Source of the DNA: Parabacteroides sp. | GTDB lineage: Bacteria; Bacteroidota; Bacteroidia; Bacteroidales; Tannerellaceae | Length of the DNA stretch: 57,947 nucleotides | Direction: 5' to 3' | Assembly: GCA_028707405.1 (NCBI GenBank) | Contig: JAQWBH010000004.1 | Span: 1-57,947 of the forward strand | Shown: positions 10,623-50,950 of the stretch, one piece after another | Position numbering within the stretch: position 1 is the first letter of the stretch | How the letters are laid out: the number at the start of each line of letters is the position of its first letter | Notes under the pieces: generated by a model | Database searches by the model: none | What the model was told of the DNA's origin: nothing | What the model saw: the letters and a program-made list of their open reading frames with translations, nothing else | Translations under genes and position numbers: made by a program

Positions 10623-10638
10623 ATTGTTTGTAATTACA

Positions 10639-13600: not shown

Positions 13601-13992
13601 CTTTCATCTGCAATGATGCCCTTAATTATTTTAGTTGTTTGCAGGCTGCTGTTTTTCTCCATTGTTTTAGGAGAAAGAACAATATAAGATCCTTCGACCT
13701 TGTATGAGACTGTATTTCCAAATAAGCGATATAAAACATCTTCTAGTGAAGTATTTTTCACCCTTAAGGAAACCATTTTATCCACATTTACTCCCTTGTT
13801 GTAAATGAATAACATCTTTGTCTGGCTTTCAATGTCGCTTAAGACATTTTCAAGCTTAACATTGTTTCTGTTTAATGTAATTCGCATGTTCTGTGCATTC
13901 ACTACTTCTGCTTCTATATATATGCTGCAAGCGAAAAAAAGAATAGCGGTAGTTTTTAAAATGCGAGATACACGCAGTAATTTTTTTTTCAT
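10639..13992 (-). CDS. SusC/RagA-type TonB-dependent transporter with STN domain (locus 1)
   Basis: Outer-membrane importer of 1117 residues. A signal peptide (about 1-33) is followed by an STN signalling domain (about 38-105), a carboxypeptidase-like beta domain (about 124-200), a plug with the SusC signature beginning EVVVVGYGVQKR (about 200-320), and the 22-strand barrel ending in a C-terminal phenylalanine (FGVNLTF). The STN domain is the part that contacts a FecR anti-sigma factor, and such a gene lies immediately upstream. Together with SusD it should import oligosaccharides using TonB energy and also report their presence. Confidence 0.96.
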   Translation of the reverse strand: MKKKLLRVSRILKTTAILFFACSIYIEAEVVNAQNMRITLNRNNVKLENVLSDIESQTKMLFIYNKGVNVDKMVSLRVKNTSLEDVLYRLFGNTVSYKVEGSYIVLSPKTMEKNSSLQTTKIIKGIIADESGEPIIGANIIEKGTQNGTISDADGHFTLEIKNNATLIISFIGYKTKEFVVGNVSSINIKLSEDTETLSEVVVVGYGVQKRASVTGSVASIQAKDITTVKTANVTNTLAGKLPGLRAVQRSGAPGDDAASIDIRGFGSALVIVDGVERDFKQLDANDIESISILKDASAAVYGFKGANGVILVTTKKGQIGKPKIDYNGYVGIQNITRYPELLNGYEYATLYNEAQQNVGITAPYSNEDLDRFKQGIGTTDWYEEVIRKTSPNMYHNLSISGGAEKIKYYFSLGYTDQEGIYKSKDYSFKKYNVRSNISAEIVKGFTVDLQLSGRLDTRNKPYEADPITRSIQMAKPVNAIYANNNENYWSNPGDKGNPVQLSNIDNIGYDRRDRREFNGSITFNWEIPWLKGLSAKTLLAYDYNNQYTRQWYKEYYEYAYNQSTEAYNVTGSHTISELTTQSDNYFKPNGQISLNYKNTFGKHDIGVLALWEFYNDRTDWVKAYRQFTVGAIDQMGAGDKTNISNDGNASVSAHEGLVGRINYAYANKYLAEFSFRYDGSYKFDPDKRWGFFPAASLGWRISEEDFFKEALPMFSNFKIRGSYGKVGDEGDFAAYQYLTGYTYPSGNYVLGSSGLSNGAKDKGMPNTNLTWYKSTTANVGFEASLISGLITTEFDYFIRKRDGLLATRQLSLPTTFGQTLPQENLNSDKTKGFEIVLGHHNKINDFTYDIKTNFSTTRIYNRHIERAASSNMYDDWRNNSNDRYQNIQWGKKVIGQFQSYDEILNAPIQDNNGNKSLMPGDLRFEDVNNDGIIDDKDNKPIGHGNTPRMYYGLNLSGEYKGFDLTIFFQGAAGHEVFISGDVMAPFIQQGLGNGFAIWLDRWHRENPSDMNSKWIPGYMPALRPTGFSANESNNTWTMHKANYLRLKTLELGYTFPKKWIDNLGIDKLRIYLNSFNMLTFTSREGIMKYMDPENSESSLRYYPQMKTFNFGVNLTF

Positions 13993-14074
13993 GATCTCAA
14001 TAACTTAATTTATTTAATATTAGACTGAATAATAATATATTATCACTTCATCTGTGCAAATTGATCTTTGTTGT

Positions 14075-14998
14075 TTACCAGATATGTATTTCATTCCCAT
14101 TTTCACGCTCATAGGTAAAATGTGCATCTTGTTGGAGCGCTTTTAATATTTCTTCTATTCCATCAGAGATGCGGAATTTTCCACTACACTCGTAATGATC
14201 TAATTTGGAATTTTCAATGACAATAGTTAAACCATAGTTTTTCTCTATTTTTTTCATCAGATCTCTAAAGCTGATATTTTTGAAAGCAATCAAACCATCT
14301 TTCCAACTATAAGGATTGAAATCTGTGATAGGAGAAACAACTAATTCATCATTAGTTAGATTAACTAAATTGTTTGGCTTTAGCAAAACGTATTTGTCCG
14401 GATGCCTATTATCGGTGACTTTTACACTACCTCGCATTAATGCTGTCGAAAAGCTATTATTTTTATAGGCGTCCACATTGAATAATGTCCCTAATACCTC
14501 AATATCACAATGTCCGGCATGGACTATAAACTTTTTGTTTTTTTCTTTTGCTACATCAAAAAGTGCTTCACCTTCCAAAAATACTTCTCGTTTTTTTCCA
14601 TTGAAAGATAGAGGATACGACATTTTTGATAAGGCATTTAACCAAACATGAGTTCCATCGGTTAATTGTATTTCAACTCTCTGGCCTGCTGGAACAGCCA
14701 CAGTATTGTAGGCAATAGATGGTGTTATATTTTCTTTTTTTAGATAGGATATGCTGTAAAGAATGAATAGGGTAATGATTGCTGCTGCAACACTTCCAAT
14801 GATAGTTCTGAATGAGATTTTTTGGGGGTGTAAAATGTCTTTTGTAGAATCGCTGAATTGTATTGCATCGAAAATTTTTCGTTCATTAAAGAGAATAATT
14901 CTATTGTGCTCGTCTTCATTAACCCATTTCCGTATTTGGGTTATGTCTTGATCAGTTGCACGACCTTCAAACATTTTGTATAGTACTTTCTTGTTCAT
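14075..14998 (-). CDS. FecR family anti-sigma factor (locus 1)
   Basis: Inner-membrane signal transducer of 307 residues. The frame is open to 15049, but the ATG at 14998 (MNKKVLYKMF) matches the usual N-terminus of the family and is chosen. A cytoplasmic sigma-binding segment (about 1-60) is followed by one membrane helix (about 64-85), the FecR domain (about 100-195; motifs LTDGTHVWLN, FLEGEALFDV) and a DUF4974 C-terminal domain (about 225-300). It sits between the ECF sigma gene and susC, the classic order for a trans-envelope relay: glycan-loaded SusC, FecR, sigma release, operon induction. Confidence 0.93.
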   Translation of the reverse strand: MNKKVLYKMFEGRATDQDITQIRKWVNEDEHNRIILFNERKIFDAIQFSDSTKDILHPQKISFRTIIGSVAAAIITLFILYSISYLKKENITPSIAYNTVAVPAGQRVEIQLTDGTHVWLNALSKMSYPLSFNGKKREVFLEGEALFDVAKEKNKKFIVHAGHCDIEVLGTLFNVDAYKNNSFSTALMRGSVKVTDNRHPDKYVLLKPNNLVNLTNDELVVSPITDFNPYSWKDGLIAFKNISFRDLMKKIEKNYGLTIVIENSKLDHYECSGKFRISDGIEEILKALQQDAHFTYERENGNEIHIW

Positions 14999-15114
14999 AT
15001 TTTTTGTTTCTATTATAAGGGTAGATGAAAGAAGGCTTACCCTAAACAAAAAGTAAGGTTTTTGGGATTTCTCATAATTAGGCCTTGGTTTGCAATAAGG
15101 AAGGGCACCAGAAT

Positions 15115-15687
15115 TTACGAATAAAAGAAATCAAATACAAATAGTAAACAAGGTAAGTAATCTTTTAGGTTTTTGCGAAGTGCTTCAAGAGCATTGCTAA
15201 TGTGGTATTCCACGCTTTTAACAGACAAGCCCATTTCTTGAGCTATTGTTTGGTAATTTTTCCCTTCGTATCGATTCATGATGAATATTTGGCTGGTTTT
15301 TGAAGGGAGCTGATCTAAGGTTTTTTTTATTAAGTCTTGTATTTCTTCACTAAATAAATCTTCGGGATTGCATTCTTCCAAACTTGAAATCCGGGTCTGT
15401 AATTCCCATTCCTTGTTTGATAGCATATTTTCAGCTATACTATTCCATGTACGTTGTCTTTGTAAGTATGCCAAACATTTGTTCTTAATGATTACTAAAA
15501 TATAGAGAGGTACATTTTTTACATCTTGAAGCTTTTCACGGTTTTCCCAATAATAGATGAGGCTTTCTGCAACAATATCCTCAGCATCTTCATTATTATA
15601 TATGTAAGATGACGCAAATCGGATATATCTATTTTGATAGTCAGAATAAATGCGGTTAAATAACTCTATGTAATTCTTTTCATTCAT
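15115..15687 (-). CDS. ECF RNA polymerase sigma-70 factor (locus 1)
   Basis: Sigma factor of 190 residues with region 2 (about 10-75, DAEDIVAESLIYYWENR) and region 4 (about 125-175, NYQTIAQEMGLSVKSVEYHISNALEALRK). It belongs to the Bacteroidetes FecI-like group whose activity is held by FecR proteins. It heads locus 1, 116 bp upstream of fecR, and its probable targets are its own operon and susC. No good TAnnTTTG box was found directly in front of it, so autoregulation through an ECF-type promoter is possible. Confidence 0.93.
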   Translation of the reverse strand: MNEKNYIELFNRIYSDYQNRYIRFASSYIYNNEDAEDIVAESLIYYWENREKLQDVKNVPLYILVIIKNKCLAYLQRQRTWNSIAENMLSNKEWELQTRISSLEECNPEDLFSEEIQDLIKKTLDQLPSKTSQIFIMNRYEGKNYQTIAQEMGLSVKSVEYHISNALEALRKNLKDYLPCLLFVFDFFYS

Positions 15688-37355: not shown

Positions 37356-38555
37356 ATGCAGATCCGAAAATTATTAATTTGTTCGTTAACATTCTTTCTT
37401 TTTGTAGGTATAAACATTGCCGTTTATGCTCAGAATAAAATACCTGTGATAAAAGCAACTTCTGAAAAGGTTCTCATTAAGGATGGCGAATATTATCAGA
37501 TGAATTGGCAGCTGGAGCCGGCCATAAAACCAGATATCTATTATGTAAATATTCCGGCTAAAAAAAGCGTAGTCCAATTAACAACGGATAAAGAACAATT
37601 GACTATTCGTACTCAACCGGGTAAAACCTATAACCTTATTGTTTTGCTAAACAAAAAAGATTCCTGTCATATACAAATTTTTTCTACGCTTCCACCGGAT
37701 TTACCTAAAATGAAGACATCTATTGATTCTCCCATCCATTTTCCGTTCAAATTGATTGGTTCTAAAATCTTTTTTGACGGTCGGATTAATGGGAAAAATG
37801 TAGTAATTGAATTTGATTTGGGAGCTGGGACCAGCGTTGTAAACAGGAATGTTCTGGATAAGTTGGATTTAGCATTTGCTTTCCACAAAGTCATAAGTAA
37901 TACGGATGGAGTTAGCAGAGAAAGGACAAGTATAGACAACAAACTAACCATAAACTCGATGGAGTGGAGCAATGTTTCATTGACTGAAGTCGGTAACATG
38001 AAACCTTTTGAAGATATAATTATAGGGAATGGTTTTTTTCGAAATCAAATTATTGAGATAGATTATGATACAAAAGAATTTGTCATCCATAAAACGTTAC
38101 CTGTCAAAACTGGAAGTTATAAGAAACTACCCGTCTTTTATGAGCAAGATCGTCCAAAATTTAGGGCTGAATTTATTCAGAATAATAAAAAATATGAATT
38201 TTGGTTTCTATTTGATACAGGACGTGACGGGACGATGCTTATTGGCGAGGATTTCACTTCCATTGGCAATCATTGGGAAGAATTACAACCTCTTGCTGTT
38301 ATCAATGAACGTAAAATTGTTCGTCTAGATGCTTCCATAGCAGGAATTCAATTTAAAGACATTGTTACCAATGCCTCAAATCCATCCAAACCAAATGGAA
38401 GACCAAGTTTGTTTGGAAATCAAATTTTAAATCATTTCAATGTTATAATTGATAACAAAAACGGATTTATTTATCTAAAAACCAACCATAAAATCAATGA
38501 ACCTTATTTTAATTATGAAGGCTATTTGAAAGAAATCTCAAAAAAAGAACAATGA
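37356..38555 (+). CDS. Exported retropepsin-like aspartyl protease family protein
   Basis: Protein of 399 residues with a signal peptide ending near residue 25 (AVYAQN). It has two retropepsin-like half-domains: one around 135-245 with FDLGAGTSVV (153-162), the other around 255-390 with LFDTGRDGTM (285-294). The second has the canonical D-T-G; the first has D154-L-G instead of D-T/S-G. Related exported proteins in Bacteroidetes are annotated as aspartyl proteases but few have been tested. The N-terminal ~120 residues are a separate beta-rich domain. It may be co-expressed with the XRE regulator upstream. Substrate unknown. Confidence 0.82.
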   Translation: MQIRKLLICSLTFFLFVGINIAVYAQNKIPVIKATSEKVLIKDGEYYQMNWQLEPAIKPDIYYVNIPAKKSVVQLTTDKEQLTIRTQPGKTYNLIVLLNKKDSCHIQIFSTLPPDLPKMKTSIDSPIHFPFKLIGSKIFFDGRINGKNVVIEFDLGAGTSVVNRNVLDKLDLAFAFHKVISNTDGVSRERTSIDNKLTINSMEWSNVSLTEVGNMKPFEDIIIGNGFFRNQIIEIDYDTKEFVIHKTLPVKTGSYKKLPVFYEQDRPKFRAEFIQNNKKYEFWFLFDTGRDGTMLIGEDFTSIGNHWEELQPLAVINERKIVRLDASIAGIQFKDIVTNASNPSKPNGRPSLFGNQILNHFNVIIDNKNGFIYLKTNHKINEPYFNYEGYLKEISKKEQ

Positions 38556-38617: not shown

Positions 38618-40897
38618 TCAGTTAAGGGTTGTTTGCTTCCGGGTTGGAATAAATTCGATCACACAAGTACTTCGGGCAGCTATCGGGAGGTTTATAATTA
38701 CCGCTTCATCATTGTACTTTTTCAAGAAAGTGCGTCCTTTGTCGGTTATCACATATATGTCTCCTGTTTTATGTAGATTGTATTCCGAAGTGCTTAATGT
38801 AAAAGAAACGGTATTCAATTTGTTGTTAATATTTGCCAAAGCAATACCCAAGCAACCGTCTGATGACTTCCATGCGCTTGAGTATATAGTTGGAACGGTT
38901 GTTCGATAGTTGGTTACCGTATTCCCTTCTCGTCCGGCATAAATTGAGATTTTAGAAATATCAATAGCTATCTTGTGCGAATGAATTTCAGGGCAACGAT
39001 AATAAACGCCATATAATAAATACTTGAGCGCTCTATTTCGGGTTTTAGCTAAATCAATTAAAAAATCAATTTCAGCTTTTTTATTTTGCGTCAGGAATGA
39101 ATGATAGTTGGCAATGGTTGGTTGCATGCCCCATACGAAAGCGCGTGCCTGTTCCATTAAATACTGTGAGTTGAAATGGTCAGGGAGGATTGTTTCTTGG
39201 TTCGCCGGACTATATTTGGCCGGCCACAACTCATCATAAGGAGGATAAACCAGAGAAGAATAACTCCCGTATGTGATGGCATAGTCATGATATACGGCCT
39301 GAAATAATGGGATCGGTTCGGAATTGCCTACACCGGCATATCTTTCGCGACTTGGGTCTAGTGTCATAAAGAGATCCAGGTGTGCCATCCAATCTTCACC
39401 GGAACCTTCGCCTGCAAGAATCGGCTCGGTCTGATTGGATATTTTACTTCTGATCAGGGATGTCAGATTTTTGAACCCGTCAACCCAATAATTTCCACCA
39501 CCGATTTCATGACCGTGAGACGAATCGTAACATCTGTAGTTAAGGCAAGCCTGATCCATATATACTCCATTAGTATGGTAATTATTTATAACTGTATCAC
39601 ATAGCGTTGAGTACTTGTTCTGCCAAAATTCCGTTGCCATACACATGGGTGTAAGCGGTTTGTTAGTGAAGATGTTGTAAATGTGCGAATAATTGCCGCC
39701 ATCAATTGTTTTGACTGAGTATGGTTCGGCATTTTCTTTTGTCCAGCTGTTAGTCGAATTGCCCCACTGGAAGGAGTTCATGTATACGATACAATGGACC
39801 CCTTTATTATGCGCATCCGAGACGGCCTTAATGAAGGATTCCCGCCCTTCGCGCGGGGGAATATATTCCGGAAAACCATCGTCATACGAACAGTTATGCC
39901 ACCAATGCCAATAGGCATTTACAGGAAGACCTAATCGTTGCTTCAGATCAATAGCTTCAGATAACACATTAGAAGAGCGACCTCTGTTCCATATCCATAC
40001 GGCTGTCTTTGGAAGCCAGTCGGCAATCTTTCCATTCTTGAAACGACTTTCGCGGCACCATTTTTGACGAATACCCCACTCTCGGTACATTTTTGCAGCT
40101 GAAATCCAGTCGCCGTCAAAAGATCCTATGATTGCCTGATAAGAGGGAGAATAGGTATCTATTTGGTTATTGTAAGGCAATATATTGGTAATATTGTATT
40201 TAGAATATTCTGTATCGAATGTCATTGAAAAGTCTTTTGTATAGGAAAGTGTATCATTACAGGCAAGATAGAGTCCATCCGATTTTTTCTGACTGTTGTA
40301 CAAGGCAATTAATTGCATGGAAAGCTCTCCTGGCTGGTTCCATGTGAAAGTACGCGGAGTCATTCCTTTTTTTAGATTTTGTCTGGGATTATGAATGAGG
40401 TTGCCTAACCAGGAAGAAACGGCCAGATCTTCTTTTCCTAAATCTTTTATTCCATATAAGATAGGAAACTGTATATTTTCAATATGACAGTTTCCTATCT
40501 TGTTTATTTTGATACTCCAATAAGACAGGGCTTTTTCTTTATCAAGAGAAATATAAACAATGACCTCCGGCCCGGTTGTGTTGTCCGCCTGTTCCCATTT
40601 GATTTCTACGGCTAAAGGATTAACTTTTGCGATTCTTACTCGGGTAGGTAATGAATGAATCGACGGTTGACTTTGGGCTGTATTTATTTTCCACGGGACA
40701 GATTCGACAATGGCCGGGTTTATATACTCGTAAGAGGTCTTTACATTCTGGAAAGAAACCAGTCTTCCGGTTGATTGTTCAAAACTCAATTTCAATTTTC
40801 CATTATCTATAGATATTGTTGAACAGTCCGGATTACTGCATATCCCATGATATGTATTCAGTAAAATAAAAGCTATGAATAATATTACTTTTCTCAT
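38618..40897 (-). CDS. DUF6259 glycosidase-like protein (locus 2)
   Basis: Exported protein of 759 residues, signal peptide about 1-20. An N-terminal beta-sandwich (about 25-260) is followed by a TIM-barrel region (about 295-650) and a short C-terminal beta domain. The barrel resembles the GH36/GH31-type clan: NAYWHWWHNCSYDDG (327-341), NGVYMDQACLNYRC (443-456) with candidate catalytic D448, and LAGEGSGED (494-502) with acidic residues E497 and E501. I recognise it as DUF6259, which to my knowledge has no assigned activity. It ends locus 2, 19 bp after an exported flavoprotein gene with which it is surely co-transcribed. Confidence 0.82.
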   Translation of the reverse strand: MRKVILFIAFILLNTYHGICSNPDCSTISIDNGKLKLSFEQSTGRLVSFQNVKTSYEYINPAIVESVPWKINTAQSQPSIHSLPTRVRIAKVNPLAVEIKWEQADNTTGPEVIVYISLDKEKALSYWSIKINKIGNCHIENIQFPILYGIKDLGKEDLAVSSWLGNLIHNPRQNLKKGMTPRTFTWNQPGELSMQLIALYNSQKKSDGLYLACNDTLSYTKDFSMTFDTEYSKYNITNILPYNNQIDTYSPSYQAIIGSFDGDWISAAKMYREWGIRQKWCRESRFKNGKIADWLPKTAVWIWNRGRSSNVLSEAIDLKQRLGLPVNAYWHWWHNCSYDDGFPEYIPPREGRESFIKAVSDAHNKGVHCIVYMNSFQWGNSTNSWTKENAEPYSVKTIDGGNYSHIYNIFTNKPLTPMCMATEFWQNKYSTLCDTVINNYHTNGVYMDQACLNYRCYDSSHGHEIGGGNYWVDGFKNLTSLIRSKISNQTEPILAGEGSGEDWMAHLDLFMTLDPSRERYAGVGNSEPIPLFQAVYHDYAITYGSYSSLVYPPYDELWPAKYSPANQETILPDHFNSQYLMEQARAFVWGMQPTIANYHSFLTQNKKAEIDFLIDLAKTRNRALKYLLYGVYYRCPEIHSHKIAIDISKISIYAGREGNTVTNYRTTVPTIYSSAWKSSDGCLGIALANINNKLNTVSFTLSTSEYNLHKTGDIYVITDKGRTFLKKYNDEAVIINLPIAARSTCVIEFIPTRKQTTLN

Positions 40898-40916
40898 CCT
40901 GTCTTATTGGAATAGT

Positions 40917-42626
40917 TTACTTCCAGATGATTTCCAATCCTTGTTTTTGAATGCGTTGTTGAAAATCCAACAATAAGTCTTTTTGCGCCCGAATTGCTCG
41001 TGGAAGCACTTTCTTTTCTTCTGCATAAGCGACAATCATTCCGACAGCTTCGCCGATGCTCCACTCTGCAGGATGAACGCGATAACATCCATTGGTGATA
41101 TGCGTGGTTCCGATATTTTTGCACGCCGGGAGCAAATTGTTTATTCGTTGAGGCAGCAAAGCTCCTAAAGGAATCTGGAATGGCATTGAGCTTATATCAA
41201 CAGAATTATCCCCTTGACATGTTGGATGAAGGTCCAGACGATAATAACCGATACCTACGCTGTCATCAAACTTTGCTGCAGTCGTTTCTCCAGATACGAG
41301 CTTTCGGTTTTCTGTGCCGACATGCTCTTCCAGAATGGTGAATTCGGCTTTTATTCGCCGTGATTCTCTGATGTAGGGATATTTGGCCATACCATCATTT
41401 GTGCCTAATATGTCGCCGCGCAAGCGAAGTCCGGGCCATCCTACACCTCCGTCGGGTCGTGGTGCTTCAGTCTGAAGCCAGTAGAATAGGGATAAATTCA
41501 ATTGTTTGGCTGCTTCAACATGCATTTTGATTTTTTCTTTTGAGGCATCAATGATATTTCCTAAAAAGTAATCGTTTTGCGGCCAGTTTACAATGGTAAT
41601 GTCACCTTTATAGGTCCCGGCAGTAAAATTGTTTTTGTTTATGATTTTTCGATAATTCCATAAATTGAAACCTTTGACCTCTTTCCCTGTCGGCTCGAAA
41701 GATGCTTTTATTGATTGCAGGGTACTGGGATTGGCGTAAGTCAGATCAAGCAATCGTCCTGACCAGGCAGGGGTTAATTGAGGAACATAGTCATGCCAAA
41801 ATGCATAATTTTCAGGCTTATCTATTGTCAGGTTTTCACCTGGTACATAATCCATGGCAAAGCAAACGGTAAAAGATTGATTATTATTCGGATTTGCTTT
41901 GTCGGCGGCATGAAGCTCCTTCGTTTCCGCTTTTGATTCTGCCCCGGTTACGTATTCTGTTTTTGTTAGGGGCAACAGATCTCCACATTCGGTAGCATCT
42001 ACAAAGTATGGTGCTATAAGTGTTATATCATGTTGACTGATTTGATTCTGCACGGTTACAGAGACAACATCATCTCTGTTTACTTCAGCTTTTGTTGCTT
42101 TGTATTCCAATAGAATTTGTAACTGTCCGGTACTGATGTACGGCATAAACATTTCCATTAATACGGCAACAGAAACCATCGGTTCATGACATAAGCGAGA
42201 AACATTGCCATCTCCCGGATTCAAAAATTCCCGGTTCAGGGCTTCCGGAGTTAAAGGATAATTGCGTTTGTAGTAATTGCGCACATTGTTTCTGAAAGTA
42301 CGATAAGCCGTAGGTGCTCCATGTGTTTCAATCCATGGATGTTCATCTGGCGGAACACCTTGCTGAGACAATTGTCCTCCTATCCAGTCGGTCTCTTCAA
42401 CCAATATGACTTGCAGACCATTGCGGCATGAGGCAAGAGCTGCAGCGCAACCGCCTACTCCACCACCAATGATAACCACATCGGCTTTCATTTCATTTGC
42501 TTTACTTTTTGATTTTAGTTTCGATGGAACTTTGTTTATATGATTATTCACAGCTGAAACATAAGGAAGAAGAAGGGTACTGCTTCCTGCTAGAGTTGTA
42601 AATGTTAAGAAATCTCTTCTTTTCAT
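40917..42626 (-). CDS. Exported FAD-dependent oxidoreductase (FAD_oxidored / PF12831 type, locus 2)
   Basis: Flavoprotein of 569 residues. The dinucleotide-binding motif VVIIGGGVGGCAAALA (50-65) follows a leader of about 45 residues that starts MKRRDFLTF...LAGSSTLLLP, which resembles a twin-arginine signal. The blocks VEETDWIGGQLSQQGVPPDE (76-95) and PYFVDATECGD (roughly 205-215) are typical of the FAD-dependent oxidoreductases often annotated beside polysaccharide-degrading enzymes in Bacteroidetes. The reaction is unknown; oxidation of a sugar hydroxyl is plausible from its position in a SusCD locus. It has its own promoter and is co-transcribed with the DUF6259 gene. Confidence 0.87.
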   Translation of the reverse strand: MKRRDFLTFTTLAGSSTLLLPYVSAVNNHINKVPSKLKSKSKANEMKADVVIIGGGVGGCAAALASCRNGLQVILVEETDWIGGQLSQQGVPPDEHPWIETHGAPTAYRTFRNNVRNYYKRNYPLTPEALNREFLNPGDGNVSRLCHEPMVSVAVLMEMFMPYISTGQLQILLEYKATKAEVNRDDVVSVTVQNQISQHDITLIAPYFVDATECGDLLPLTKTEYVTGAESKAETKELHAADKANPNNNQSFTVCFAMDYVPGENLTIDKPENYAFWHDYVPQLTPAWSGRLLDLTYANPSTLQSIKASFEPTGKEVKGFNLWNYRKIINKNNFTAGTYKGDITIVNWPQNDYFLGNIIDASKEKIKMHVEAAKQLNLSLFYWLQTEAPRPDGGVGWPGLRLRGDILGTNDGMAKYPYIRESRRIKAEFTILEEHVGTENRKLVSGETTAAKFDDSVGIGYYRLDLHPTCQGDNSVDISSMPFQIPLGALLPQRINNLLPACKNIGTTHITNGCYRVHPAEWSIGEAVGMIVAYAEEKKVLPRAIRAQKDLLLDFQQRIQKQGLEIIWK

Positions 42627-42690
42627 GATTGATAAATTGAAGTTAATACTGTAAGTAATTTATTATTTCTGATTGCATTTTTAATGTATC

Positions 42691-42721
42691 CAAAAATAGG
42701 AATATTAATTATAAAGCCAAA
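42691..42721 (-). promoter_or_regulatory. Promoter of the flavoprotein/DUF6259 operon
   Basis: On the minus strand TTTG (42721-42718), 19-nt spacing, and TATTTTTG (42698-42691): a consensus Bacteroidetes promoter. The -33 box is formed by the U-tract of the susCD terminator. The leader is about 60 nt. Confidence 0.8.
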
Positions 42722-42750
42722 AGAGAGTGTACTTTTTTAGTACACTCTCT
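42722..42750 (-). terminator. Intrinsic terminator of the susCD genes of locus 2
   Basis: Perfect 12-bp stem (42722-42733 with 42739-42750), 5-nt loop, followed on the minus strand by TTTGGCTTT. It lies 11 bp after the susD stop. Confidence 0.85.
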
Positions 42751-42760
42751 CTGATTATTA

Positions 42761-44533
42761 TTAATAACCATCGTTTTGAGTCAAATTGGAATCCCGGTTC
42801 CTTTCTTGTTGCGGAATAGGCCACAATTCAAATTTTTTATCCCAAAAACGGTTTAAGTCGCGTACCTTTAATTTGTTTTTATAGGCATCATAATTAGGAA
42901 TATCATTTAGATTACTACGTTCACTTGTTTTGAAATTAGGGATATCCGTTGCAGATAAACCTTCATAGCGGACGTCAGCTTTAGGTAGTCCATAGGAGGG
43001 CTGGCCATTTTCCAAATCGCCGATGCCCCATCTTCTCATATCAATAACATGTAATCCTTCTAATGCAAATTCAACTTTCCGTTCACGTCTTACTAATTGA
43101 CGCATCTTATTTTGATTGCCGATGCGATCGTTTGATACATTTGGCATTCCTGCTCTGTTTCTTACTTGATTAATGGCATCATATACGGATTGATCAAGTG
43201 CGTTCAATTCTATTTTAGCTTCGGCATAATTCAGCAATACTTCAGCATATCTCATGATCGGGACATCAACACTTGCACTACTGATATTTTCACTTGTCTC
43301 TTTACTATATTTAGCCCAGATATATCCTGCTCCGGAATTACAGAAACTTGCCCATGCCGCAGCACTTTTTATATCGTCGTTGTTTCTGAGTTTCCAGACT
43401 TTTTTTGTGTAGTCGTATGTCCAGCATGAATCTTTGTAAGCTTCCAGGACGATGGTATTTAAAGAACCATTATTGGTGGTACATGTATCGCCATGCATCC
43501 AAAGTGTGGCATGGAATCGCGGATCCCTGTTACGCTGAGGATGTTGAGGATCATATAATGGTGATTCATCGATACGCTTACCATCAATACATTCGTAGGT
43601 GTCGGCTAACATCATTGACGGATGACGTCCGGTTTGTCCTTGAATTCTGGATACTTGTCCAAAGGCAATCACGTTAATTTGCATAACACTGCTCGTATTG
43701 CTGTACGGTAGTTCAAATAGGAATTCATTACGAACATCAGCTCTTTTTTGTCCTGTGATATTCCACATATCTTCAAAGTTCTGAGCTAATCCTCTTTGTC
43801 CGAAAACTTTTTTCGCGGCTTCTGCTGCAGTTTTGAAGTATTGGGTACCTTTACCACCATAGTTCAAACTGCCTCCCAACAATGCGGCACGTGATATCAG
43901 GCCATATGCAAAAGCTCTGCTTACACGACCGGTTTCTGTTTGTGTCCAAGGCAAATAGTCGGCAACATCATTGATATCTTTAATGATAAAATCTAATATT
44001 TCAGCTTTTGAAGTACGAGGAACTGTATATTGTTCGACTCCAACCGGAGTATCAAAAAATGGCACATCCCCCCATAATCCGATTAGATTGTAGTAGCAAT
44101 AGGCTCTTAAAACATGCGCTTCGGCCAGATATTGTTTTGCTTTATCGTTAAAAGTATTCATGTATGGTGCCGCACCGGAGATAAGTGAATTTGAGCGTGC
44201 AATAACGGTATATAAATCCGCCCAATATGTTTGTATAACTGAATTGTCGGCATTGAGACCACCGCCGGCTCCGATCGTCGTATTTTGATTTCTTTCCAAT
44301 GCAAGGCCGGTAAAGTGATCTAGAGAAATAACATGCGGAATATTGTAGGAAAGATTCATATACATGCCAGCGTATATGCCCGTTACACCATCTTTTAAAG
44401 AAATCTCGCTATTAAAGAAGCCGTTACTAGTATAACTAGTATTACTGTCTTCTCTATCCAGAAAATCGCTGCATGACATTGAACTGAGTCCAAATGCTGC
44501 AAGAATGAATGTATATAATATTGTTTTTTTCAT
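42761..44533 (-). CDS. SusD/RagB-type glycan-binding lipoprotein (locus 2)
   Basis: Surface lipoprotein of 590 residues; the lipobox SMSC gives the lipidated cysteine at residue 21. Family features are AEAHVLRAYCYYNLIGLWGD, the late block PIMRYAEVLLNYAEAKIEL, and RRERKVEFALEGLHVIDMRRW. It starts 12 bp after susC and should bind and hand over oligosaccharides to it. The two SusD proteins in this window share only family-level motifs, so the two loci are not recent duplicates and probably serve different glycans. Confidence 0.95.
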   Translation of the reverse strand: MKKTILYTFILAAFGLSSMSCSDFLDREDSNTSYTSNGFFNSEISLKDGVTGIYAGMYMNLSYNIPHVISLDHFTGLALERNQNTTIGAGGGLNADNSVIQTYWADLYTVIARSNSLISGAAPYMNTFNDKAKQYLAEAHVLRAYCYYNLIGLWGDVPFFDTPVGVEQYTVPRTSKAEILDFIIKDINDVADYLPWTQTETGRVSRAFAYGLISRAALLGGSLNYGGKGTQYFKTAAEAAKKVFGQRGLAQNFEDMWNITGQKRADVRNEFLFELPYSNTSSVMQINVIAFGQVSRIQGQTGRHPSMMLADTYECIDGKRIDESPLYDPQHPQRNRDPRFHATLWMHGDTCTTNNGSLNTIVLEAYKDSCWTYDYTKKVWKLRNNDDIKSAAAWASFCNSGAGYIWAKYSKETSENISSASVDVPIMRYAEVLLNYAEAKIELNALDQSVYDAINQVRNRAGMPNVSNDRIGNQNKMRQLVRRERKVEFALEGLHVIDMRRWGIGDLENGQPSYGLPKADVRYEGLSATDIPNFKTSERSNLNDIPNYDAYKNKLKVRDLNRFWDKKFELWPIPQQERNRDSNLTQNDGY

Positions 44534-44545
44534 GACTGAAATGTG

Positions 44546-47500
44546 TTAAAATCTTAAATCAACGCCGAATGAATATATACGCATAACAGGATAAAATCCA
44601 GATATTGAACTTTCAGGATCATAGCCCGGATAAGCATTACTGACTGTAAATAGATTTTGACCACTTATGTATAGGCGCAAATTGTTTATCTTTATTTTAT
44701 TAAGTACGCTTTTTGGTAAAGTATACCCTAAAGTAACATTTTTTAAACGCATATAAGCACCACTTTTCACCCAGAAGGAAGAAGGAATATTATTCATATT
44801 TGTTCCGGTACCATCTATAAGTAACAGCGGATATTTGGCATTTCTATTGGTTTCAGACCATGAGTCTAGTTGTTCACGATATACGGTACGTCCGATATAG
44901 AATGGTCTGACCCCGTAACCATCAGCATAAATGTCTCTTTTCCCTATACCCTGAAAGAATACCGAAAAATCAAAGTTTTTCCAGTCTGCACCCAGATTCA
45001 GGCTGAATAAATAGCGGGATTGAGGATCTCCGATTACTGTCCGGTCATAATCATTGATTACACCATCCGGTACTCCATTGGGACCACTTATATCTTTATA
45101 TTTAATGTATCCCGGTTTGACATTGACTTTATTGCCTCCGTATACAGGTTGATTTTCGTTTGCAATTTCTTCTTTTGATTGGAAATAACCATCAGCAACA
45201 TATCCGTACCATGAATAGATTGGATATCCTTCCTGGGTTGTATTATTGCTATTGATATATTTGTTTCCATATAGATTTGTTACTTTATTCTTTACATCCG
45301 ATAGGATAGCAGATACATTATAGTTGACATCGCCGATTTTGTCTTTCCACGAGATCGATAGATCCCATCCGTTATTCCGCATTTTCCCTCCATTCTGCCA
45401 GGAAGACGATAATCCGACAAATATAGGAATTGGAAATTTTTGTAGCATATCTGAAATGTTTCTGATATAATAATCGAAGGTGACGTTCAGCCTGGAGTTC
45501 AAGGTCGTTGCATCTATTCCCAAGTTCATTTGTGTTGATTTTTCCCATGTGATGCTCTGATTCGACATTGTTGATGAATATATACCTGTTGTATAACTAT
45601 CATTAAACCAATATGCCGCGCCTGAGCTTAATGTTGCTGCATAGGGATAATATCCACTAATTTCCTGGTTGCCCAATGTACCGTAAGAAGCCCTTAATTT
45701 CAGGTTGCTTATTTTTGTTTTCAGGCTTTCAAAGAATGGTTCTTCCGAAATTCTCCATCCCACAGATGCTGCCGGAAAGAAACCCCATCGATTATCTTTA
45801 GTGAAACGGGAAGATCCGTCATAACGTCCTGTTAATTCAATTAAATATCTATCAGCGAAAGCATAATTGAAACGAGCAATATAGGACATCATTGCAAATT
45901 CTGATTTACTGCCTGTGGCAGTTGCCGAAGAGGCATCACCGTTATCTAACTCCTCGTAACCTTTGTAATAGAAACTTTTGCGTCCGGCTCCCATATTTTT
46001 GTTTAGGGTTTCTTCCGTTTGGATTCCCAAAAATCCTTTGAAGTAATGTTTCTTATTAAATGTATTCTCGTATGTGATTTGAGCATTAAGCTGATTGTTT
46101 ATCATCCGAAGCCATGATTCGCTCCTGGCCGTTCCCGTTGTGGGGTATGTCATGATATAACTACCGGCTTCATAGGTATCGTATGTTCCTTGATAAGTGT
46201 CCGTTTTATTTTCATATTTTCGCGAAGCATAACTGACTAATAGTTCAAGCCCTTTCAGTGGGTTCGCCTTTAAGGATCCCATAACGCTCAAATCATTATT
46301 ATCACTGATGCTTTTTCCACCTTCTCGTGCCAAAGCTATAGGATTGTAACCATTTTGACCGTTTCCCCATGTGCCGTCTGAATTTATGCCACCAAAAACC
46401 GGTGTGTAAGTTAATGCGCAGTTTATAAGATCTGCCGCACCGGCGGTCGGATTAGTAAATACAGTTCTGCGTATGTCTAAGTTTAAACCGGCCGACAACC
46501 AATCATTGATTTTTGCATCCGTATTAGATCTCAGCGCTTTTCTGTTGTAATCATTGTTTGGTAATAAGCCGTCTTCATAATTGTAGGATGCATTTATGAA
46601 AGTCCTTACCTGTTCAGAGCCACCACTTATACTAAGTGAATGGTTATGTGTCAATGTTGTGTTGTCAAATAGCAGGTCTTTCCAGCGGGTGTCATAATTA
46701 TGGACATTGTCGGCTCCTTGAGTTTTATAAGTATTAATCTGTTCTTGGGAGTATTGCGCATCCATATCCTGATTTGCACGAGCTGCATTTACAGCTTCCA
46801 TATATTCAACGGCATTTGTTGGATTTGGCATAGATGTAGGAGTTCTCATTCCTACGTATCCATTATATGATAAACTAACTCCATTGCTATTTGCACGCTT
46901 GGTAGTGACCAGAATTACACCATTGGAAGCTTTTGAACCGTAAATAGCAGCTGAGGCTGCATCTTTTAATATGGAAATAGACTCAATGGCATTCATATCT
47001 ACAGAGTTCATATCACCTTCAACTCCATCAATTAAAATCAAAGGAGTTGTTGCTGAGTTAATTGAACCCGTACCACGTACCTGAATAGAGGCTGCTGTGC
47101 CTGGAGCTCCTGAACTTTGACTTACAGCAACACCTGGTATTAAGCCTTCCAGAGCTTGAGAAGAGTTTGCTACATTTCGTTTAATCAAATCTTTATTTGA
47201 TACACTTTGTACAGCCCCCGTTAGGTTTACTTTCTTTTGAGTACCATAACCAACTACAACAACTTCGTCTAAAGCTTGCGTGTTTTCTCTTAATTCAACT
47301 TTCAAAGAAGACTCTCCTGTACAGCGTATGTTTTGGGTCGTATATCCTAAAAATGATATTTCAATAATGTCTCCTTTTTTTATATCAGGAAGACTGAATT
47401 TACCATCGACGTCGGTAATGGTCCCCATATTTGTCCCTTTAATAACGACATTGGCTCCAATAATAGGCTCTCCTTTTGAATCAGTGACAATACCCGTGAT

Positions 47501-47914
47501 TTTAATTTTCACTTGATTCGTACTATTAACGGATGCTTCAGTCGTTGTTAAAATAATATCTTTATCGATAACCTTATATGAAACATTCGTCCCGTTAAAT
47601 AATACTTTTAAGATATCAAACACATTTTTATTACTTGCTTTTATTGAAACGATACGATTGGAATCAATTAACTTGCTGTTGTAATAAAAATGGAAATTGC
47701 TTTGCTGCTCCACAGCTTCCAAGACTTGTGAAACAGTTTTTTCATTCAGATTGATAAATAGGGATGTCTTTTGGGCATAACTGTCTTCTGCAAAGATCAT
47801 GCTTGCGGATAAAAAGAACATCAGAAGTGTCAATTTCATAATTCGATAAATATTATTCCAAAGCATTGAGGAAGAATAACTACCCAAGTCTTGGGAGGAT
47901 TTTTTTTTATTCAT
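44546..47914 (-). CDS. SusC/RagA-type TonB-dependent transporter with STN domain (locus 2)
   Basis: Outer-membrane importer of 1122 residues. A long leader with the hydrophobic core near residues 26-43 ends at DSYAQK. STN domain about 50-125, carboxypeptidase-like beta domain about 139-210, plug with EVVVVGYGTQKKVNLTGAVQ (about 218-237), then the barrel ending in a terminal phenylalanine (FGVDLRF). The STN domain couples it to a FecR protein, whose gene lies immediately upstream. An internal Met at residue 26 is an alternative start, but the long leader is usual in this family. Confidence 0.95.
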   Translation of the reverse strand: MNKKKSSQDLGSYSSSMLWNNIYRIMKLTLLMFFLSASMIFAEDSYAQKTSLFINLNEKTVSQVLEAVEQQSNFHFYYNSKLIDSNRIVSIKASNKNVFDILKVLFNGTNVSYKVIDKDIILTTTEASVNSTNQVKIKITGIVTDSKGEPIIGANVVIKGTNMGTITDVDGKFSLPDIKKGDIIEISFLGYTTQNIRCTGESSLKVELRENTQALDEVVVVGYGTQKKVNLTGAVQSVSNKDLIKRNVANSSQALEGLIPGVAVSQSSGAPGTAASIQVRGTGSINSATTPLILIDGVEGDMNSVDMNAIESISILKDAASAAIYGSKASNGVILVTTKRANSNGVSLSYNGYVGMRTPTSMPNPTNAVEYMEAVNAARANQDMDAQYSQEQINTYKTQGADNVHNYDTRWKDLLFDNTTLTHNHSLSISGGSEQVRTFINASYNYEDGLLPNNDYNRKALRSNTDAKINDWLSAGLNLDIRRTVFTNPTAGAADLINCALTYTPVFGGINSDGTWGNGQNGYNPIALAREGGKSISDNNDLSVMGSLKANPLKGLELLVSYASRKYENKTDTYQGTYDTYEAGSYIMTYPTTGTARSESWLRMINNQLNAQITYENTFNKKHYFKGFLGIQTEETLNKNMGAGRKSFYYKGYEELDNGDASSATATGSKSEFAMMSYIARFNYAFADRYLIELTGRYDGSSRFTKDNRWGFFPAASVGWRISEEPFFESLKTKISNLKLRASYGTLGNQEISGYYPYAATLSSGAAYWFNDSYTTGIYSSTMSNQSITWEKSTQMNLGIDATTLNSRLNVTFDYYIRNISDMLQKFPIPIFVGLSSSWQNGGKMRNNGWDLSISWKDKIGDVNYNVSAILSDVKNKVTNLYGNKYINSNNTTQEGYPIYSWYGYVADGYFQSKEEIANENQPVYGGNKVNVKPGYIKYKDISGPNGVPDGVINDYDRTVIGDPQSRYLFSLNLGADWKNFDFSVFFQGIGKRDIYADGYGVRPFYIGRTVYREQLDSWSETNRNAKYPLLLIDGTGTNMNNIPSSFWVKSGAYMRLKNVTLGYTLPKSVLNKIKINNLRLYISGQNLFTVSNAYPGYDPESSISGFYPVMRIYSFGVDLRF

Positions 47915-47987
47915 ACTTTTGTCTTGTTTTTAGATTAAAAATGTTTGAATAGCTCTTGAGTTTTAAGACTGTATTTTGAGCATTTTA

Positions 47988-48018
47988 TGCGAAAAGATGT
48001 TACCAGCGTCTTTTCGCA
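47988..48018. repeat. Hairpin between fecR and susC of locus 2
   Basis: 10-bp perfect stem (47988-47997 with 48009-48018), 11-nt loop. T-run (TTTTTT) only on the plus-strand side; on the minus strand, the direction of both flanking genes, the following bases are TAAAATG. It may act as a weak attenuator between fecR and susC or stop antisense transcription. Confidence 0.6.
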
Positions 48019-48052
48019 TTTTTTCAGTCTTTAGTGTTTTCCAGTTCATTTA

Positions 48053-49159
48053 TCATTCTCTCATAGGCATTATATTTTTTTTGTTAGATATATTGTGACT
48101 ATATTTTTTTTTAAATAAGACAATGTTTGTGTAATTCATGCGATCATGATCATCTTGCGTTGCCTGTTGGATTTTGTAATCCATAGATGAGGATATTTTC
48201 AGGTAGTCGAGTATCTGGGATAACTCTCTGTTGTTAAAATCTCCTGTAAACGAATAACTGTAGATAATAGGATCTTGAACAGTAAATTTCACATTATAGA
48301 AATGCGTTAATTTTTCTAGCATTTCAGGAAGAGGACTGTTCTTGAATACCAGACGTCCTTCACGCCACGCAGATTCGTTTTTAGCATCTACAGAATCAAT
48401 AGATATTTTTTCATTTAAAAGATTATAACTTACTCTTTGAGGTCTTACTAGCTGTGTGTATTTGTTTTGATTATTCCTTTTTTTCATTAGTAAAATGATA
48501 GATCCATTCACAAGTGTAACGCGAACGTTATTCTCTTTACTATAAGCTTGAACATTAAATTCTGTACCCGTAGCCCGGATATTTATATTGTTATGATTAA
48601 CACTTACTATAAATGGAAGTCTGTCGTTATGCTTCACTTTAAAATAACCTTCTCCCTCTAGAAATATTCGACGTTCGTGATCTTTGTTTGTAAAATGAAG
48701 TGAATAAGAAAGCGAACTCCCCGAGTTCAGATAAGCTATAGATCCGTCGGGCAGGGTAAAAGTTGAACGCATTCCAGAATTGGAAAAGACTGTAACTCTT
48801 TCGTTTCTGTTATTGGGCTGCCTGATGGACGCTTCATAAATGTAAGAGAATATAATAGACATGATAATGATCCCTGTGAAACATGCGGCGGCGAAGAGGT
48901 AATGCTTTATACTCTGAAAATGTCGTCTTTTGTCAAGTCGTCGCTTTACGAGATTATAGGCATTTAAAGAATCACGTGATGAAATGCGTTCTTCAATTTC
49001 TTGGGCATAGTAAATGCGGGCTAGTTCTAATAGTATTTTTTTATTTGTACTATTATCATTTATCCATTGCTCTATATTACTTGTTTCTTCAGGAGACGTT
49101 TCTCCTCGCAAATAATTTATTAGCATGATACCATTTGGTCCTTTTGTCATGTTTTTCAT
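48053..49159 (-). CDS. FecR family anti-sigma factor (locus 2)
   Basis: Inner-membrane protein of 368 residues: a sigma-binding cytoplasmic segment (about 1-85), one membrane helix (about 86-108), a FecR domain (about 125-230; TLPDGSIAYLNSGSSL, FLEGEGYFKV) and a DUF4974 domain (about 265-345). Its C-terminus is longer and more basic than usual (KKKYSHNISNKKN). It probably receives the signal from the STN domain of the SusC encoded next. Unlike in locus 1, the cognate sigma gene is not upstream on the same strand but divergent, at 49282. Confidence 0.92.
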   Translation of the reverse strand: MKNMTKGPNGIMLINYLRGETSPEETSNIEQWINDNSTNKKILLELARIYYAQEIEERISSRDSLNAYNLVKRRLDKRRHFQSIKHYLFAAACFTGIIIMSIIFSYIYEASIRQPNNRNERVTVFSNSGMRSTFTLPDGSIAYLNSGSSLSYSLHFTNKDHERRIFLEGEGYFKVKHNDRLPFIVSVNHNNINIRATGTEFNVQAYSKENNVRVTLVNGSIILLMKKRNNQNKYTQLVRPQRVSYNLLNEKISIDSVDAKNESAWREGRLVFKNSPLPEMLEKLTHFYNVKFTVQDPIIYSYSFTGDFNNRELSQILDYLKISSSMDYKIQQATQDDHDRMNYTNIVLFKKKYSHNISNKKNIMPMRE

Positions 49160-49264
49160 TTTTATTATTAATATGACACTTATTATAGGTCGTAACCCTT
49201 AATGAATGGAATGATTTAACAAATAATTTTATCAAAAGAAGAGAATATAAAATAAAAAGTATTG

Positions 49265-49272
49265 TATATTTG
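49265..49272 (+). promoter_or_regulatory. -7 promoter element of the divergent ECF sigma gene
   Basis: TATATTTG, an exact TAnnTTTG match, 9 bp before the ATG, which gives an extremely short leader. No -33 TTTG is seen at the usual distance. Confidence 0.55.
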
Positions 49273-49281
49273 TAATTTCTA

Positions 49282-49833
49282 ATGGACGAGGATATTTATA
49301 TTATAGAAGATTTGCGTAGCGGCGATGAAGAGGCTTATAAAAAGTTGTTTTTAAAGTATTATTCACCACTAGTTGAATACGCTTCTCAATTTCTTTCCGA
49401 CATTGATGCCGAAGAGGTTGTTCAAGATTTTATGATATTCTTATGGGAGCATCGGGAGCATTTGCTTATTACTTCTTCGTTAAAATCTTTTCTTTTTATT
49501 TCTGTCAAAAACCGTTCGCTTAATGCAATCAGGCACGAGGAGTTTATTCAGCGGCTTCATAGTAAAATTTATGAGCAGCTAAAGAATCAATTTGATGATC
49601 CCGACTATTATATGGTTAATGATTTGGCTGAACAAATAAAGAAGGCGATAGATTCCCTGCCTGTTATCTATCGCGATACATTCAAAATGAGTCGTTTTGG
49701 AGAAAAAAGCAATGTGGAAATTGCGCATGAATTAGGCATTTCGGTTAAGACCGTGGAAGGACATATCACACAGTCTCTTAAAATGCTCAGAGTTAAGCTT
49801 AGTGATTATCTATATTTTTTATTGGTTATCTAA
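49282..49833 (+). CDS. ECF RNA polymerase sigma-70 factor (locus 2, divergent)
   Basis: Sigma factor of 183 residues with region 2 (about 15-80; [18 protein letters not shown]) and region 4 (about 118-172; [27 protein letters not shown]). It is divergent from its presumed FecR partner across 122 bp, so one intergenic region would hold both control points. Its 3' end runs almost directly into the mnmA promoter. Confidence 0.92.
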
Positions 49834-49854
49834 GACGAAAACTTACTATCTTTG
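49822..49854 (+). promoter_or_regulatory. Promoter of mnmA
   Basis: TTGG at 49822, about 22-nt spacing, and TATCTTTG at 49847-49854 (exact -7 match). The -33 region overlaps the end of the sigma-factor gene. The leader is about 10 nt. Confidence 0.6.
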
Positions 49855-49870
49855 TCGTCAAAATCACAAT

Positions 49871-50950
49871 ATGATGGAAATAGCTGCATTGGTATCGGGT
49901 GGCGTAGATAGTTCGGTCGTGGTTTATCTGTTGAAAGAGATGGGTTACGATCCAACAATCTTTTATATCCGTATAGGAATGGAAGATAAGGACGGATATA
50001 TTGAATGTCCGGCCGAGGAAGATATAGAAATTACTTCGTATATTGCTAAAAAATATGGATGCCGTTTCGAAATAGTTTCATTGCATGATGAATATTGGGA
50101 TCGTGTGGTGAGTTATACGATTGATTCGGTGAAGCGTGGATTGACACCAAATCCGGATATGATGTGTAATAAATTTATCAAATTTGGCTGCTTTGAAGAT
50201 AAGTGGGGAAAGGATTTTGATAAAATTGCTACCGGTCATTATGCTACAACAACTGAAATGAATGGAAAGGTTTGGCTTTCGACAGCTAAAGATCCGGTGA
50301 AAGATCAGACTGATTTTTTGGGACAAATCACACGGCTACAGATTCAGAAACTAATGTTTCCCATTGGTCATTTGATGAAGAGCGAAGTGCGGGCTATTGC
50401 TCTTGAACAGAAGTTGCCTAGTGCACAGCGTAAGGACAGTCAGGGAATTTGTTTCCTTGGTAAAATTAACTACAACGACTTTATTGGGCGTTATCTGGGA
50501 AAACGCCCTGGAAAGATAGTGGAACTGGAAACGGGCAAGGTACTTGGCAGGCACGATGGTTATTGGTTCCATACTATCGGTCAGCGCAAGGGTTTGGGAT
50601 TGAGTGGGGGACCGTGGTTTGTGGTTAAGAAGGATGTGAAACGCAATATAATATATGTGTCGCAAGGCTATGATCCGCAAACACAATATGGTAAGGTGAT
50701 TAACATGCACGGTTTTGATTACATTACGGAGGATCCCTGGGGAGAGTTTGATGATGCGAAAGATATAACCTTTAAGATTCGCCATACACCAGAGTTTACA
50801 AGTGGAAGATTGCGTCGCATCGGCGATGTGTATCGTATTGAGTCTGATAAAAAAATTCAGGGCATTGCTCCCGGGCAATATGGCGTGGTGTATGACAAGG
50901 ATCATCATCTATGCTTTGGCAGTGGAATGATTATTGATGAAAACAAATAA
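49871..50950 (+). CDS. mnmA: tRNA 2-thiouridine(34) synthase MnmA
   Basis: Transfers sulfur to uridine 34 of tRNAs for Lys, Glu and Gln. Protein of 359 residues from the ATG at 49871 (49874 is equally possible); the frame is open to 49802 but that lies upstream of the promoter. The PP-loop SGGVDSSV (9-16) activates uridine with ATP, and the catalytic cysteines are in NPDMMCNKF (near residue 101) and SQGICFLG. The C-terminal beta-barrel domain (about 285-359) is present. Its stop is only 3 bp from an ABC-importer permease gene, so the three genes 49871-52991 form one operon, an unexpected partnership. Confidence 0.93.

Follow-up and report, generated by a model that had tools for sequence, protein, structure and literature searches.

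Gene content of the locus

The window analysed here, 57,947 nucleotides from Parabacteroides sp., is one whole contig (C620) of a 5.5-Mb assembly with 620 contigs and 5.96% contamination. Between positions 38618 and 49833 it holds a SusCD locus that ends in two enzyme genes, one for a flavoprotein oxidoreductase and one for a DUF6259 protein. Open reading frames (ORFs) were called mechanically. The extracytoplasmic function (ECF) sigma factor gene (49282..49833, plus strand; TIGR02985, 152.5 bits against a cut-off of 126.4) was divergent from the other five, which lay on the minus strand. These encode a FecR anti-sigma factor (48053..49159; PF04773, PF16344), a SusC-type TonB-dependent transporter with an STN domain (44546..47914; TIGR04056, 985.8 bits; PF07660), a SusD-type outer-membrane binding protein (42761..44533; PF07980, 177.7 bits; PF14322), a 569-residue FAD-dependent oxidoreductase of family PF12831 with a twin-arginine start (40917..42626) and a 759-residue DUF6259 (PF19773) glycosidase-like enzyme with an N-terminal signal-like helix (38618..40897). 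All six genes thus lay where a reading made from the sequence alone (the sequence-only reading) had placed them, in the families it had named. The SusC and SusD genes were adjacent, 12 bp apart, which identifies a SusCD locus. The flanks were an aspartic-protease-like gene (37356-38555, opposite strand) and mnmA (49802-50950), so the borders remained as first drawn.

The Pfam scan of the locus genes gave no match to a classical glycoside hydrolase (GH) family, in agreement with the earlier view, and none to a known GH or polysaccharide lyase family among the enzymes linked to SusCD; the DUF6259 protein is glycosidase-like by its fold alone. The flavoprotein and DUF6259 genes were 19 bp apart, whereas the 134-bp spacer between the SusD and flavoprotein genes carried a strong 12-bp hairpin (42722..42750, minus strand; RNA z -4.79 for the spacer) resembling a terminator or attenuator. 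The proposed two-gene operon is therefore a fair reading of the gene spacing, as a putative separate two-gene unit. Sigma-70 and terminator scans gave counts no better than those of shuffled sequence. The hairpin may allow the transporter and enzyme genes to differ in expression.

Fold and candidate active site of the DUF6259 protein

The PF19773 match covered profile positions 1-300 of 300, with 424.2 bits against a curated cut-off of 28.7. The AlphaFold2 model (pLDDT 91.1, pTM 0.91) had a GH129/GH101/GH36-type fold when compared with the families listed by VIA/Foldseek. This agrees with the glycosidase-like barrel suggested earlier, and the structure prediction proposed as a check did place GH36 among the fold relatives, beside GH129 and GH101. 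GH129 and GH129-like enzymes include the α-N-acetylgalactosaminidase NagBb and the Zobellia 3,6-anhydro-D-galactosidase DagB. Because GH36 and GH101 are also structural relatives, the fold does not point to GH129 in particular, from which the window protein differs by its 12-14% identity and its conserved D448-Q449 and H461-x-H463 motifs. Pfam includes a GH129 model; it did not match the window protein, for which DUF6259 was the sole Pfam match at E 0.001.

D448 and E497 were invariant in 34 aligned DUF6259 sequences, across which the D448-Q449 and H461-x-H463 motifs were also conserved. In the model, barrel strands 444-448 and 493-497 end in these two acids. E497 aligned with DagB Glu517 in a profile alignment, while the equivalence of D448 to DagB Asp486 follows solely from strand position. 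DagB itself retains only the Asp of the NagBb pair and may represent a separate family (PMC5698469). Of the catalytic residues put forward in the sequence-only reading, D448 and E497 were thus strengthened, whereas E501, invariant in the same 34 sequences, was lost in the more distant L037. Conservation and model geometry make D448 a candidate nucleophile and E497 a candidate acid/base, and the protein is a credible glycosidase.

Genomic neighbourhoods of DUF6259 proteins

Two short peptide patterns were scanned over 84,980 species genomes, which finds only loci that hold the patterns. This returned 43 DUF6259 loci, of which 34 were close (36-66% identity) and the other 9 distant; L035 was added to give a close set of 35. 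Family labels in the loci are phmmer/HMM transfers from representatives, most but not all of which were named by Pfam/NCBIfam. Among the 35 close loci, MurQ was present in 12, NamZ in 13, MurK in 4 and any of the three in 15, with an SSF symporter in 12 and SusC in 14; the near-copies L049/L050, L051/L052 and L053/L054 make these counts overstate independent events. In each of the 15 mur-type loci, no more than 110 bp separated DUF6259 from a NamZ, symporter or MurQ gene of the same strand. The 9 distant loci had no mur-type gene and SusC in 4. As a control, 31 non-randomly chosen PF12831 loci with similar flanks held no MurQ, MurK or NamZ.

The close relatives inside operons of the N-acetylmuramic acid (MurNAc) type came mainly from Flavobacteriaceae and Bacteroidales, which links them to the scavenging loci of Tannerella and its relatives (NamZ, MurT, MurK, MurQ). 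L035 ran NagX-like, SusC, SusD, NamZ, symporter, DUF6259, MurQ, GH3, GH18, NamZ and an FAD-linked 2-hydroxyacid-dehydrogenase-like gene. The order in L061 was the same minus the first NamZ; the NagX and dehydrogenase matches of this type did not reach their NCBIfam cut-offs. The order in L054 and L055 was SusC, SusD, phosphatase-like, NamZ, DUF6259, symporter, kinase, MurQ. MurQ of L059 exceeded the TIGR00274 cut-off (337 versus 302 bits) and that of L053 fell just below it (300.4). The L050 kinase matched solved sugar kinases, among them 8ow9, a "putative novel MurNAc kinase", and also N-acetylglucosamine (GlcNAc) kinase entries. Tf_MurT is a sodium symporter encoded in a murTKQ operon (PMC5790795). 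The symporter of the DUF6259 loci agrees with it in family and position and is presumably MurT.

In a tree in which many rows deviated in composition, the three Parabacteroides DUF6259 proteins formed a weakly supported group (81/71) next to six proteins from Bacteroidales metagenome-assembled genomes, three with mur-type neighbours (87/100). The other two Parabacteroides loci, in P. bouchesdurhonensis (L048) and P. chinchillae (L080), had DUF6259 flanked by genes for a class II tRNA synthetase and a Gfo protein. The DUF6259 protein had no match among plasmids.

Two side branches were also seen. In three other genus genomes a distant DUF6259 paralogue stood beside a gene resembling 2-keto-3-deoxy-6-phosphogluconate (KDPG) aldolase (L138 9236-13027, L139 9228-13865, L140 8247-11079), with a PfkB kinase-like gene in L138 and L139; the L138 genes were named by Pfam, the others by sequence start. 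Through this branch, an oxidised or uronic sugar may enter the 2-keto-3-deoxygluconate (KDG) route. A phosphodiester glycosidase (NAGPA) gene at L085 5125-6819 and an Exo_endo_phos gene at L053 7822-8682, both in DUF6259 loci, hint that the glycans may carry phosphodiester links, as teichoic-acid linkage units do.

The flavoprotein and its subfamily

The flavoprotein matched PF12831 with 320 bits over profile positions 1-410 of 416; a single-sequence structure model reached pLDDT 32. Its twin-arginine start (MKRRDFLT) was kept as RR in all 10 subfamily members aligned, and the genome encodes TatC, which fits the earlier claim of export. The protein is a credible candidate for an exported oxidoreductase associated with glycan loci. 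The subfamily is tight (56-69% identity in the nine other aligned members) and sparse: a search of 38 genus genomes at E 1e-60 found it in 6, and 3 of 295 order genomes had it. A search of 395 class genomes gave flavoproteins above 60% identity in six genomes among the matches listed, including the window genome. In viral contigs the profile gave 20 pattern matches, none confirmed.

Eleven other loci of the subfamily were read. L157 is a sister locus, with ECF/FecR genes, SusCD orthologous to that of the window (65/64%), the flavoprotein and a GDSL esterase. L156 paired the flavoprotein with a GDSL protein (Pfam), and L134 had a same-length ORF in that place. The flavoprotein stood alone in L158 and at a contig end in L144. 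In L159, from another genus member, Gfo and TIM isomerase-like genes accompanied a flavoprotein split into two frames (8961-10327). L045, in the window's own genome, ran TIM isomerase-like, flavoprotein, GlcNAc-2-epimerase-like, SusCD; L135 ran SusCD, DUF4855, flavoprotein and a sorbosone-dehydrogenase/cytochrome c gene. L136 and L137 had a second flavoprotein, the flavoprotein and a large ORF, which Pfam assigned to GH20 in L137, and L160 had SusD, GHL10, symporter, DUF4434 and flavoprotein. Elsewhere in the same genome, contig C305 held SusC, SusD and a PF12831 protein, with no other ORF above 209 residues in its 7.9 kb.

SusC or SusD lay near PF12831 (within 6 kb, same strand) in 4 of the 11 subfamily loci, 5 of 6 other strong loci of the window genome and 9 of 22 wider loci. 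This rule counts L136, with SusC behind opposite-strand genes, and misses L160, with SusD further off. Five of the six own-genome loci follow it, so this genome has PF12831 genes beside SusCD at more than one place.

The window SusD had orthologues in P. chinchillae L178 (78%) and L157 (64%). The nearest SusCD orthologue in P. chinchillae is that of L178 (75/78%); behind it come genes for two further PF12831 proteins, a DUF4434 protein and a sugar transporter. L084 and L085 held related SusCD (SusD 59% and 53%) plus a PF19773 protein. This SusCD type thus occurs with PF12831 in the window, L157 and L178, with a DUF6259-domain enzyme in the window, L084 and L085, and with both, among the loci seen, only in the window. 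The four related loci were met by other routes; a search of 295 class genomes with the window SusD (E 1e-80) found the window only.

Co-occurrence of the two enzymes

The sequence-only reading had proposed an oxidative two-protein system, in which the flavoprotein would oxidise a hydroxyl of the sugar, giving for example a keto-sugar, before DUF6259 cut the modified glycan. The neighbourhood survey it called for was run. None of the 44 other DUF6259 loci (35 close, 9 distant) contained PF12831, and none of the 38 other PF12831 loci contained DUF6259; the 40 loci of the latter scan were these 38 plus two NamZ loci of this genome. The two genes were about 816 kb apart in P. bouchesdurhonensis and on different contigs in P. 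chinchillae. The window was the only locus seen with both enzymes, and the two-enzyme system therefore fails the co-occurrence test that the sequence-only reading had set for it; a conserved PF12831-DUF6259 pair was rejected. The candidate active site of DUF6259 is also of the normal two-acid type. A flavoprotein profile gave two weak matches in DUF6259 loci, L048 1204-3147 (2.7e-7) and L070 14672-16255 (0.0012), several kb from DUF6259, which were not counted as PF12831; judged by its neighbours, the former looks like a succinate-dehydrogenase flavoprotein.

Several observations speak for coupling. The two genes form a 19-bp-spaced unit behind SusCD, and the flavoprotein appears Tat-exported. 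All three genus members with a close DUF6259 protein (35 searched) carry a window-type flavoprotein, a count uncorrected for ancestry; 6 of 38 genus genomes overall have that flavoprotein. In addition, subfamily loci hold xylose-isomerase-like TIM proteins (L045, L159) and a Gfo/Idh/MocA protein (L159), which recall the 3-keto-glycoside pathway reportedly described by Nasseri in 2024. That pathway shares an exported oxidoreductase in a glycan-uptake setting, but its enzyme is NAD-type whereas the window enzyme is FAD-type. Pfam matched neither Gfo/Idh/MocA nor DUF1080 in any of the six genes of the locus or the two beside it; DUF1080 hydrolases and BT2157 belong to the pathway (PMC9007349). 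The link of the locus to a keto-glycoside route is only circumstantial. GMC glycoside 3-oxidases of AA3 are likewise FAD enzymes acting on sugars, as proposed for the window flavoprotein, whose six Pfam matches included no GMC domain.

Proposed function

We tentatively favour an ECF/FecR-regulated glycan-uptake locus with an ordinary DUF6259 glycosidase and a separate flavoprotein, rather than an obligate oxidise-then-cleave pair. The glycan would most likely be amino-sugar-bearing, for example cell-wall or mucin-type fragments, and its oligosaccharides would be imported to the periplasm by the outer-membrane SusCD. There, DUF6259 might act as an ordinary retaining exo-glycosidase, probably α-specific, in which D448 would serve as the nucleophile and E497 as the acid/base; prior oxidation would not be needed. 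The flavoprotein would be a separate Tat-exported periplasmic oxidoreductase tied to this SusCD type, most likely oxidising a hydroxyl of the imported sugar or of the released product.

Several results weigh against this proposal. Identity to the fold matches was mostly 8-14%, the best GH129-type rows reached Foldseek TM-scores of only about 0.54-0.58 (query length), and the fold family spans enzymes for galactose, anhydrogalactose, N-acetylgalactosamine and starch. Unlike the MurNAc scavenging loci, the window gave no match to NamZ, MurT, MurK, MurQ or the symporter among its 40 ORFs, and 20 of the 35 close loci lacked MurQ, NamZ and MurK in the fetched DNA, several being cut by contig ends; the link to an amino-sugar substrate is therefore indirect. 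This genome has its own MurQ on contig C325 and NamZ genes on C338 and C325. In addition, DUF6259 lies near an exported oxidoreductase in three Parabacteroides species, the flavoprotein in the window and a twin-arginine Gfo/Idh/MocA protein in L048 and L080, which could hint at redox coupling. The L048 protein resembles 8tdf, 8tdh and 8tdi, the last named a glucuronide-3-dehydrogenase. That Gfo/Idh/MocA protein is encoded in 34 of 38 genus genomes; because it is nearly genus-wide, its adjacency to DUF6259 is not specific, and we rejected it as proof of coupling.

A broader proposal, which we regard as unlikely, is a SusCD class in Bacteroidota centred on a Tat-exported PF12831 flavoprotein that would oxidise periplasmic glycan and enable its breakdown without a classical hydrolase; the window would then add DUF6259 as a glycosidase family not described before, serving amino-sugar glycans. 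It is suggested by L157, which has SusCD, the flavoprotein and an esterase, with no glycosidase recognised (Pfam on the esterase only).

The same locus bears on two readings that we consider improbable to a similar degree. In one, the flavoprotein itself would cleave the glycan by redox-assisted elimination, like NAD-dependent keto-glycoside enzymes, with DUF6259 as an add-on for another linkage. The flavoprotein-GDSL arrangements of L156 and L134, the bare contig C305 and the sorbosone-dehydrogenase/cytochrome c neighbour in L135 are consistent with it, but such chemistry was not shown for any PF12831 member in the material examined, and other PF12831 loci do contain glycosidases (GH20 in L137, GH18 in L164). 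In the other, recent recombination would have put DUF6259 behind a SusCD-flavoprotein pair, so that regulation but not substrate is shared. L157 lacks DUF6259 at that place and its genome (76% complete) has no DUF6259 match, while the nearest DUF6259 relatives lie in the tRNA-synthetase/Gfo setting of L048 and L080; against this, L084 and L085 also combine related SusCD with PF19773, so the pairing is met more than once. The obligate oxidise-then-cleave system is the least probable of all, given the co-occurrence counts and the candidate two-acid active site.

DUF6259 is a term not found in the open-library literature searched. Given the confident model, the candidate catalytic pair and the recurrent association with NamZ/MurT/MurK/MurQ operons, it can be put to the test as a candidate family of glycosidases for sugars of the bacterial cell wall, one that bears on peptidoglycan scavenging by gut and marine Bacteroidota. 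The repeated occurrence of PF12831 with SusCD offers a second lead, towards glycan processing based on flavin; a PF12831-centred class, if true, would be the flavin-dependent equivalent of the keto-glycoside route that uses NAD.

Additional observations

DUF4434 recurred with PF12831 in L160, L178 and twice in L167, and GlcNAc-2-epimerase-like genes occurred in 5 of 31 wider PF12831 loci; the loci sharing these recurrent genes were L160, L167, L178, L163, L172, L173 and L147. L167 also had a gene of the dihydrodipicolinate synthase (DHDPS) family, which recalls sialic-acid catabolism. Elsewhere in the window, at 8772-15687 on the minus strand, lay another SusC/SusD pair, likewise accompanied by FecR and ECF genes.
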